A stretch of 40,594 nt of DNA from positions 1 to 40,594 of the forward strand of contig JAPPLD010000010.1 in NCBI GenBank assembly GCA_028819565.1. Direction: 5' to 3'. Made by a program: the position numbers and the translations under genes. Positions within the stretch are counted from its first letter, which is position 1, and each line of letters begins with the position of its first letter. Under the pieces are notes generated by a model, which did no database searches, had not been told where the DNA came from, and saw only the letters and a program-made list of their open reading frames with translations. This DNA is from Gammaproteobacteria bacterium. Its GTDB lineage: Bacteria; Pseudomonadota; Gammaproteobacteria; Poriferisulfidales; Poriferisulfidaceae. Shown one piece after another: positions 37,959 through 40,348 of the stretch.

Positions 37959-37977
37959 AATGAGAATGACTATTATT
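37959..37977 (-). promoter_or_regulatory. Fur box upstream of fbpA
   Basis: On the minus strand AATAATAGTCATTCTCATT (37959-37977) matches 11 of 19 positions of the Fur consensus GATAATGATAATCATTATC, including the NATA/TCATT core spacing. Position just before fbpA fits iron repression. Part of it (ATGACTATT at 37966-37974) recurs inverted as AATAGTCAT at 38053-38061 in the promoter of the divergent gene. Confidence 0.6.
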
Positions 37978-38047: not shown

Positions 38048-38077
38048 TTGACAATAGTCATCACTTTAGTTTATAAT
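38048..38077 (+). promoter_or_regulatory. Perfect-consensus sigma-70 promoter of the GHKL-Fic fusion gene
   Basis: TTGACA (38048-38053), an 18-nt spacer and TATAAT (38072-38077). Transcription should start near 38084, leaving a leader of about 45 nt. The surrounding 37943-38128 is markedly AT-rich. Confidence 0.75.
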
Positions 38078-38136
38078 TTTCAAGAGAAAGATTTCTAATC
38101 TCTGGAAAGCGTTTAGGAAATATTGACAATGGTCAA
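38048..38136 (+). repeat. Pair of TTGAC-N4-GTCA palindromes flanking the leader (putative operators)
   Basis: Site 1, TTGACAATAGTCA (38048-38060), overlaps the -35. Site 2, TTGACAATGGTCAA (38123-38136), is a perfect TTGAC-N4-GTCAA palindrome covering the start codon. The two share 12 of 13 bases and lie 75 bp apart, about seven helical turns. The arrangement suggests looping repression by the gene's own winged helix. Binding is inference. Confidence 0.55.
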
Positions 38137-40348
38137 GATCCGTACCCGAAGCGAGCAAATCAGGAATTACATTCTCGACCAGGTCGAGGAGTCGCCGGAG
38201 GCCGTGGCAAAGGAAACAGCGGAGAGATTCGGGATTTCTCGCCAAGCCGCGAACAAGCATCTGAGGCGGCTCTGCGAGGAGGGAATTCTTGAGCAGTCCG
38301 GAAAGACGAACGCGACCCGGTATCGGCTGGCAACATTGTCCAGTTGGACCGGTCGTTACGAGATTCAGCCGAAGTTGACGGAAGAAGTTGTTTGGATGCA
38401 AAACATTCAAGATCAACTCGGCTCTCTGCCAGATAACGTAGAAGGCATTTGGTGCCACGGCTTCACCGAAATGTTCAACAACGCAATCGACCATTCCGAC
38501 GGTTCCATGATCCGGGTTGGAATCACTCGAACCATAGTGGGGATAGAAATGTGGATCCACGATGACGGGTGCGGAATCTTCAGGAAAATACAAAAAGCAT
38601 TGGAGTTGCCGGACGAGCGGCATGCCATTTTGGAATTGTCGAAGGGCAAGCTGACGACCGACCCCGACCGTCATACCGGCGAAGGAATTTTCTTCACGTC
38701 CAGGATGTTCGATGAATTCGCCATTTTCTCAGGCGGCATCTATTTCTCCCATGAATTCGGGAAGAAAGAAGACTGGGTTCTGGAAACAGATCAGGATTTG
38801 GGCGAGACTTCCGTCTTCATGAAGTTGAAAAACACAACGAAAAGAGCAAAAAAAGAGATTTTTGATCGATTCACTTCCGGAGAAGATTTCGGGTTCACTA
38901 AAACGATTATTCCCGTTCGGATGGTTCAGCTTGGAGAGGACGAGTTGATCTCCCGCTCCCAAGCCAAGCGGCTCCTGGCTCGCGTGGAGAAGTTTCAGAA
39001 AGTGTTGTTTGACTTCCAGGGAGTAAAAGACATCGGGCCGGCATTCGCAGATGAGATCTTCCGGGTCTTCGCTCGTCAACACCCGGAAATCGAACTGGCT
39101 CCGATCAACACGGGTCCGGAAACAGAAAAAATGATCGCAAGGGCAGTAAATGTGGAAGCCCATGTTGTGTCCGGCTCCCCCACCGTCAATGTACAAGTTG
39201 AAGTCGTTCCACTCGAAGCCGGTCCACCATTGTCTGAAGCCAGCATCAAAATCCAGGAGTACGTTTCTCAGTCGATTGGGGCGCGCAAGCCGGTCGGGTA
39301 TGACCCGTCATTCCTCTTGTCGTACCAGCCTAACGACACGTTCTACCTCTCGCAGGAGGAACGCGAACATCTATGGGAAACGGGACAGTCAGGCGAATCC
39401 GGACAACCCGCTGGGGTCCATGCCAAGAACATTTTAGACAAGCTACTAATCGACCTGTCGTGGAACTCCAGCCGCCTTGAAGGCAATACCTATTCCCTGC
39501 TTGAAACCAGCCGCCTGCTTGAGCTCGGTGAGGAAGCGGAAGGGAAAAAGCGAAGCGACGCGCAGATGATCCTCAACCATAAGGATGCCATCGAATTTCT
39601 CGTCGAAGCGGTGGAACACATCGGCTTCAACCGGCACACCCTCCTCAACCTTCATGCGCTGCTGGCGAACAACCTGCTACCCGACCCCGACGCGGAAGGA
39701 CGGCTTCGACATGCCAACGTCGGAATTGGGGGATCAGTCTTCCATCCATTGGAGACCCCGCAACTCATTGAAGAACATTTTGACCGAATCCTCGCCACCG
39801 CCTCGGCAATCGAGGACCCCTTTGAGCGAGCCTTCTTCGCGATGGTGCAAATTCCCTACTTACAGGCATTTGACGACGTCAACAAGCGGGTGTCGCGATT
39901 GGCCGTGAATATTCCGTTGATCCAGAGCAACCTATCGCCGCTGTCTTTCGAGGATGTTTCCCGGCGGCTTTACACCGAGGCCGTGCTCGGCGTGTACGAG
40001 TTGAACCGGGTTGAATTGCTCAAGGATGTATTTCTTTGGGCCTACCAGCGGTCGGCCGTCCGCTACGCCGCCATACGGCAATCCATTGGCGAACCCGACC
40101 CGTTTCGCATGCGGCACCGAACTGCGTTGCGCGAAGTCGTCGGCATGGTCGTCCGCCAACGCATGAACAAGCAGCAAGCCGCAACCCATGTCCATACATG
40201 GGCACAAACACAGGTGGATGAACCGGAATATTCCCGCTTCTGCGAAATTGCCGAAAAGATCCTGCTGGGGCTACATGAAGGAAACGTGGCGCCTTACAGA
40301 ATTCGGTTATCCGAATTTACGGCATGGCAGGAACGATGGGGAACCTGA
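38129..40348 (+). CDS. Multidomain regulator: winged helix + GHKL ATPase + STAS-like (DUF4325-like) + degenerate Fic domain
   Basis: A 739-residue chain. Residues 1-70 are a winged helix (AERFGISRQAANKHLRRLCE is the HTH). 85-235 is a GHKL ATPase, with N-box EMFNNAIDHS (114-123), G1 DDGCGIF (145-151) and G2 TGEGIFFT (183-190). 255-340 matches the STAS-like DUF4325 module (ISRSQAKRLLARVEKF, VLFDFQGVKDIGPAFADEIF). 375-739 is a Fic protein of the helical-bundle type, with inhibitory-helix motif SSRLEGN (447-453) and LLNLHALLANNLLPDP. The Fic catalytic motif is degenerate: 579-590 read QAFDDVNKRVSR, so the catalytic His is Gln579 and the phosphate-binding GNG is VNK. ATG 38129 is preferred to TTG 38123 because AGGA at 38115-38118 is then 10 nt away. 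Expected to be cytoplasmic; function unknown. Adjacent to a possible insertion sequence. Confidence 0.85.
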   Translation: MVKIRTRSEQIRNYILDQVEESPEAVAKETAERFGISRQAANKHLRRLCEEGILEQSGKTNATRYRLATLSSWTGRYEIQPKLTEEVVWMQNIQDQLGSLPDNVEGIWCHGFTEMFNNAIDHSDGSMIRVGITRTIVGIEMWIHDDGCGIFRKIQKALELPDERHAILELSKGKLTTDPDRHTGEGIFFTSRMFDEFAIFSGGIYFSHEFGKKEDWVLETDQDLGETSVFMKLKNTTKRAKKEIFDRFTSGEDFGFTKTIIPVRMVQLGEDELISRSQAKRLLARVEKFQKVLFDFQGVKDIGPAFADEIFRVFARQHPEIELAPINTGPETEKMIARAVNVEAHVVSGSPTVNVQVEVVPLEAGPPLSEASIKIQEYVSQSIGARKPVGYDPSFLLSYQPNDTFYLSQEEREHLWETGQSGESGQPAGVHAKNILDKLLIDLSWNSSRLEGNTYSLLETSRLLELGEEAEGKKRSDAQMILNHKDAIEFLVEAVEHIGFNRHTLLNLHALLANNLLPDPDAEGRLRHANVGIGGSVFHPLETPQLIEEHFDRILATASAIEDPFERAFFAMVQIPYLQAFDDVNKRVSRLAVNIPLIQSNLSPLSFEDVSRRLYTEAVLGVYELNRVELLKDVFLWAYQRSAVRYAAIRQSIGEPDPFRMRHRTALREVVGMVVRQRMNKQQAATHVHTWAQTQVDEPEYSRFCEIAEKILLGLHEGNVAPYRIRLSEFTAWQERWGT

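Follow-up and report, generated by a model that had tools for sequence, protein, structure and literature searches.

Near the end of the stretch of DNA analysed here (the window, 40,594 nt) lies a gene in which a winged helix (WH), a GHKL ATPase, a STAS-like domain and a Fic domain follow one another on a single chain. An earlier note on this DNA, with RsbW/RsbV partner switching as the known parallel, had taken it for a self-contained switch in which ATP state or the STAS-like module controls either DNA binding or the Fic module. The locus raises the question whether this order is a conserved architecture, an accident of decay or assembly, or a working protein, and which of the activities ascribed to its modules it uses.

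The reading frame is uninterrupted from 38129 to 40348 on the plus strand (739 aa plus stop), as the note had described it, and an in-frame TTG at 38123 would extend the protein by 2 residues. All features of the gene given below are on the plus strand. The winged helix (residues 1-70; 38129-38338) matches Pfam HTH_24 at residues 15-55 (1.1e-6), and its model resembles Zalpha and other winged helices (Z 8.8). It is followed by the GHKL ATPase (residues 69-240; 38333-38848) and by the STAS-like domain (residues 258-340; 38900-39148), which matches DUF4325 at residues 278-331 (PF14213, 1.8e-15) and was delimited by alignment of C-termini. The fusion junction and a linker (residues 341-366; 39149-39226), recognised by sequence comparison with WH-Fic proteins, lead to a class II Fic domain (residues 367-650; 39227-40078), with a Fic match at residues 501-595 (PF02661, 7.9e-9), and to a helical C-terminal tail belonging to the Fic protein (residues 651-739; 40079-40345), assigned from the Fic model. 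The AF2 model of the whole chain was mostly confident for residues 1-340 and, given a shallow usable alignment, poor for the Fic part, which was then modelled by itself (pLDDT 91; match to FICD/HYPE with Z 25 over 238 aligned residues). All four modules are recognisable far beyond chance, three through Pfam and the GHKL ATPase through the match of its model to SpoIIAB and RsbW.

A second copy of the four-part order was found neither among the top-ranking relatives when 84,980 species genomes were scanned nor in about 950 genomes searched. The scan yielded 307 relatives; every one of the best 80 of these 307, which cover the rank range where fused copies should appear, is a Fic protein on its own, in most cases about 465 residues long. 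WH-GHKL-DUF4325 and WH-Fic proteins were both recovered many times in the approximately 950 genomes and never joined. Among 369 Gammaproteobacteria with 53 DUF4325 matches, the frame runs on into a Fic domain in the fused gene only. A frame of 643 aa in another genome was considered as a second fusion and rejected, being a WH-GHKL-DUF4325 gene plus upstream open frame. Phages carry WH-GHKL-DUF4325 (27 viral contigs) and, in some contigs, WH-Fic, but no fused form was seen in them. The neighbours of WH-Fic and of WH-GHKL-DUF4325 genes are diverse, and a survey of this genomic context, which the earlier note had proposed, disclosed no conserved operon partner. The note had also known both kinds of protein as separate genes and had allowed that a Fic part always encoded separately in homologues would speak against its reading; in every homologue found, Fic is indeed encoded by a gene of its own. 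Judged from these comparisons, the fused gene is therefore a lineage-specific fusion and not a conserved architecture. Literature searches turned up nothing relevant on DUF4325 or on the operator motif described below, and as far as could be searched, the four-part WH-GHKL-DUF4325-Fic order is new to description, in agreement with the note.

How the two parents were joined can be read from their ends. In an alignment of C-termini, stand-alone WH-GHKL-DUF4325 relatives terminate shortly past residue 341; the fused protein has their domain order and conserved motifs, but its chain does not end after DUF4325. WH-Fic relatives begin with a winged helix of their own (about 95 residues), which is missing from the fused protein, and the linker at residues 341-366 resembles the stretch that follows this winged helix. 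The ends and starts of the parents thus coincide in the alignments with domain borders of the fused protein, although the exact breakpoint is uncertain by about 10 codons. Comparison of sequences shows that the fusion swapped out the winged helix of the Fic protein, at a domain border and without loss of frame, and retained all of the WH-GHKL-DUF4325 protein plus the whole Fic fold.

The upstream neighbour of the fused gene is a divergent iron-transport gene; between the two lies AATGAGAATGACTATTATT (37959-37977), which we take to resemble a Fur box. In a sister species, the same locus beside this gene carries a solo DUF4325 gene (118 residues) and then a WH-Fic gene (483 residues). A frame shift does not explain the fusion: compared with the sister, about 350 bp are absent, among them the stop codon and the Fic winged helix. 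Another relative has kept DUF4325 at the same locus, beside a nucleotidyltransferase/HepT pair. In a congeneric genome (L084:1498-1929), the first approximately 20 residues of DUF4325 are in frame with Fic residues 616-739, a remnant of 143 aa. As relatives hold solo DUF4325 with WH-Fic, DUF4325 alone or a remnant join, the locus is a changing accessory spot. The sequence that follows WH-Fic in the sister sits on another contig in the window's genome, near Schlafen-like, HepT-like and type IIG restriction genes. This region (L181:135-5178), with Schlafen AlbA_2/HATPase_c_4, HepT-like and MmeI-like type IIG genes, is a defence-gene hotspot; it lies by the cupin-like gene that in the sister genome comes after WH-Fic.

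By the adjacent iron-transport gene, window and sister fall together (dS 0.10). The solo DUF4325 genes of two species share 82% identity; their identity to the DUF4325 of the fused gene is 53-60%. They also group together in a tree of the domain, which leaves the nearest relative of the fused gene's DUF4325 undecided. On these data, the DUF4325 of the fused gene is not descended vertically from the solo gene, and the WH-GHKL-DUF4325 part has probably taken the place of the resident gene. For the Fic part, the pairwise comparison of window and sister gives dN/dS 0.12, which says nothing on selection since the fusion, and conserved Fic sites are broken at 3 positions in the window and 2 in the sister. 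These values argue for purifying selection on the Fic part between the two genomes and give no sign of pseudogene drift.

The region upstream of the fused gene bears features of its own. A predicted sigma-70 promoter, TTGACA-N18-TATAAT, matches at 12 of 12 positions (38048-38077, plus strand). One operator-like copy of TTGACAAT (38048-38055, plus strand), inside the palindromic TTGACAATAGTCAT, overlaps the -35 box, and a second (38123-38130, plus strand), inside the palindrome TTGACAATGGTCAA, overlaps the start codon, an overlap also found for words of this type in several WH-GHKL-DUF4325 homologues. With up to one mismatch, TTGACNNNNGTCAA has two matches in the 40.6 kb, both at these sites, although two by chance would not be unusual.

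As TTGACAATAGTCAT and TTGACAATGGTCAA were found at this promoter, the promoters of both parent families were surveyed. Of 78 WH-Fic upstream regions, 72 contain three or more copies of TTGCG or its complement, mostly as direct repeats every 19-21 bp, and many WH-GHKL-DUF4325 loci have TT[GT]ACAAT repeated with a period of 21-22 bp. Because the survey had been prompted by the window, these first motif counts are post hoc. A lag test independent of the chosen motif, which accepts any 8-mer with one mismatch allowed, found a repeat at a lag of 19-22 before WH-Fic genes (69/74), and before WH-GHKL-DUF4325 genes (40/44), compared with 79/388 for control genes, namely other open frames on the same contigs; related loci are samples not fully independent in these counts. 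The repeated word varies by lineage and the spacing is constant, the pattern to be expected under co-evolution of winged helix and operator. The phased repeats suggest that both parent families control their own genes; WH-Fic proteins would be expected to bind and repress their own promoters, and WH-GHKL-DUF4325 proteins likewise.

Further details were seen in the same regions. Upstream of nearly every WH-Fic gene from several phyla (L003-L081), an inverted pair CGCAA-N6-TTGCG accompanies the TTGCG half sites, and more distant WH-Fic genes (L194-L198) have a different repeated word similar to AAGCTCAA. Most WH-GHKL-DUF4325 loci (L118-L145, L153-L179) show direct repeats with 22-bp spacing, the words being TTGACAAT, TTTACAAT, GTTGTCGAT or CCTTTAAGAAA depending on the lineage. 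An acidobacterial WH-Fic gene (L034:5722-7398) has a C-terminal DUF1488 extension (1.5e-15), and frames of comparable length occur at L053, L058, L059 and L064.

At the fused gene, two TTGACAAT sites and no TTGCG site are present upstream, so its operator type fits its winged helix. The two copies are 75 bp apart, compared with 21-22 bp in the WH-GHKL-DUF4325 family, and the repeat array is accordingly not intact. This departure from the phase of the family favours the main rival explanation, by which an accidental deletion or recombination joined two genes of a dwindling accessory locus in frame and left a transient protein of which only one half, or none, works. The partial losses at the sister loci, among them DUF4325 joined in frame to the C-terminal part of Fic, would agree with such decay, as would the singleton status of the fusion and the sequence adjoining the gene at the contig end (40443-40551), which is IS-like and repeated at the ends of two other contigs (C2, C16) of the same genome; the window stops 246 bases past the stop codon. 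Against decay, the ATPase and Fic-family motifs are all intact, the join falls between domains, the promoter is perfect and broken conserved sites are not in excess. We regard this explanation as unlikely, though it deserves to be taken seriously.

An artefact, in which metagenome assembly joined separate genes of related strains, appears improbable. It would account for the occurrence of the fusion in one assembly only, for the 21 of 22 bases at the DUF4325 end that match the sister strain, a stretch typical of assembler mis-joins, and for a DUF4325 part that differs from the sister (53% identity) much more than the adjacent iron-transport gene does. However, the Fic winged helix and a stop codon are gone altogether instead of being out of frame, and a mis-join at random would seldom keep the frame and fall on a domain border as well.

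The Fic part itself departs from the canonical enzyme. It has the class II features, a Fic fold and the N-terminal inhibitory motif (S/T)xxxE(G/N), here an intact SSRLEGN (residues 447-453; 39467-39487). In its active-site loop QAFDDVNKRVSR (residues 579-590; 39863-39898), alignment with FICD-type proteins places Gln579 at the position of the catalytic His in HxFx(D/E)GN(G/K)RxxR. Gln replaces His in 83 of the 88 Fic-like proteins first collected and is invariant in an alignment of 44 sequences reaching down to 34% identity, in which S447, S448, E451, G452 and N453 of the inhibitory SSxxEGN helix are likewise invariant. With the catalytic His exchanged for Gln throughout the family, an AMPylating output is not supported, and ordinary AMPylation is probably not used by the fused protein. 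Its QAFDDVNKR fits the motif Qx[FY]x[DE][GV]NKR of clade D2, the His-less Fic/Doc proteins without known function described by Khater and Mohanty 2015 (PMC4454073).

For the ATPase, Pfam gives a weak match at residues 111-199 (HATPase_c_2, under its gathering score). Its model, in contrast, is closest to SpoIIAB (Z 15.6) and then to RsbW (Z 12.2), with gyrase and sensor kinases at 9-10; the GHKL fold expected in the note was thus obtained by structure prediction, and the domain is of the SpoIIAB/RsbW type. The GHKL motif residues E114, N117, N118 and H122 (N box, 114-122), D145, G147 and G149 (G1, 145-151) and G184 and G186 (G2, 184-189) are invariant across 26 sequences. The N-terminus of the second helix of the STAS-like domain, by contrast with a classical substrate, reads IGPAFADE without a phosphorylatable Ser/Thr. 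At the position of the SpoIIAA/CapS phospho-serine, placed by sequence and predicted secondary structure rather than by superposition on a solved STAS domain, none of the 26 sequences has Ser or Thr, and G-[QPH]-[AG]-F is found instead. Ser275 and Ser277 are conserved but belong to a different helix of the domain. As the usual phospho-acceptor is missing, classical RsbW/RsbV phospho-switching is unlikely in the fused protein, which leaves room for other phosphorylation. That the GHKL kinase phosphorylates the STAS-like module of its own chain and thereby releases an AMPylating Fic toxin is thus very improbable: the SpoIIAB/RsbW-type fold of the model, the inhibitory Fic motif and VapKSC, where a toxin is under the control of a STAS protein (PMC13373217), favour it, but the acceptor is lacking and every family member aligned has Gln for the catalytic His. 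Of the claims in the earlier note, that of key motifs in every module holds for the ATPase and fails at the Fic histidine and the STAS-like acceptor; likewise, the likeness to RsbW/RsbV stands for the ATPase fold and falls for STAS phosphorylation.

On balance, we favour with modest confidence the view that the fused gene encodes a real, lineage-specific and self-regulating chimera of a WH-GHKL-DUF4325 protein and a histidine-less WH-Fic protein, mechanism included. The winged helix would bind the TTGACAAT sites at its own promoter and repress the gene. The nucleotide state of, or a ligand in, the SpoIIAB-like GHKL/STAS-like module would alter DNA binding or the oligomer, and the Fic domain, restrained by its inhibitory helix, may serve on the same polypeptide as a nucleotide-binding sensor or as an output of altered chemistry; classical STAS phosphorylation and ordinary AMPylation would probably be unused. 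A self-contained switch with a DNA-binding part, as first proposed in the note, fits this view, and the repeats at the promoters raise the likelihood of DNA binding and autoregulation. More tentatively, and somewhat short of what we would call probable, WH-Fic and WH-GHKL-DUF4325 proteins, two widespread families, may in general be autoregulators that assemble along direct repeats two helical turns apart at their own promoters, with motif and winged helix co-evolving. The Fic and ATPase folds would then have a sensing role, by which this array is loaded or unloaded. The fused gene would then be a natural domain swap, by which the Fic part came under the winged helix and operator of the other family. 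If this holds, the 'dead enzyme' Fic clade becomes a class of regulators, and likewise WH-GHKL-DUF4325; the fused gene suggests that both parent proteins can function within one chain.

Several known systems share parts of this design. SpoIIAB and RsbW, the nearest solved folds to the GHKL domain, are separate anti-sigma kinases; their targets are a sigma factor, which they bind, and a Ser in a STAS partner, which they phosphorylate. CapK/CapS and VapKSC, in which a GHKL/STAS pair governs transcription or a toxin (PMC13373217), combine HTH, STAS and GHKL modules as the fused protein does. CapK, however, has the order HTH-STAS-GHKL instead of WH-GHKL-STAS-like, takes as substrate a separate STAS protein in which a Ser is conserved, and lacks Fic (PMC13373217). 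CapK/CapS also has a STAS-wHTH repressor encoded next door; beside the fused gene, the neighbour upstream is the iron-transport gene, and the downstream side is covered for 246 bases. Fic and a DNA-binding domain share one chain also in CccR, a Fic-HTH protein that represses its own promoter (PMC9755527), and in CbFic2, whose activity is stimulated by DNA (PMC10628234), and both precedents speak for the favoured view; unlike the fused protein, these have a C-terminal HTH, keep the catalytic His and carry no ATPase/STAS module. The clade D2 Fic/Doc proteins, which have the active-site motif in common with the fused protein, have been described as usually single-domain (PMC4454073), whereas the relatives found here bear an N-terminal winged helix and the fused protein bears WH-GHKL-DUF4325 in its place. 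A further comparison is with the WH-GHKL-DUF4325 proteins (PF14213, about 345 aa): although they stop at about residue 345 without a Fic domain and have their upstream repeats at 21-22 bp instead of 75 bp, they agree with residues 1-340 of the fused protein in domain order, motifs and C-terminal end, and TTGACAAT-type words are common to the upstream regions of both.
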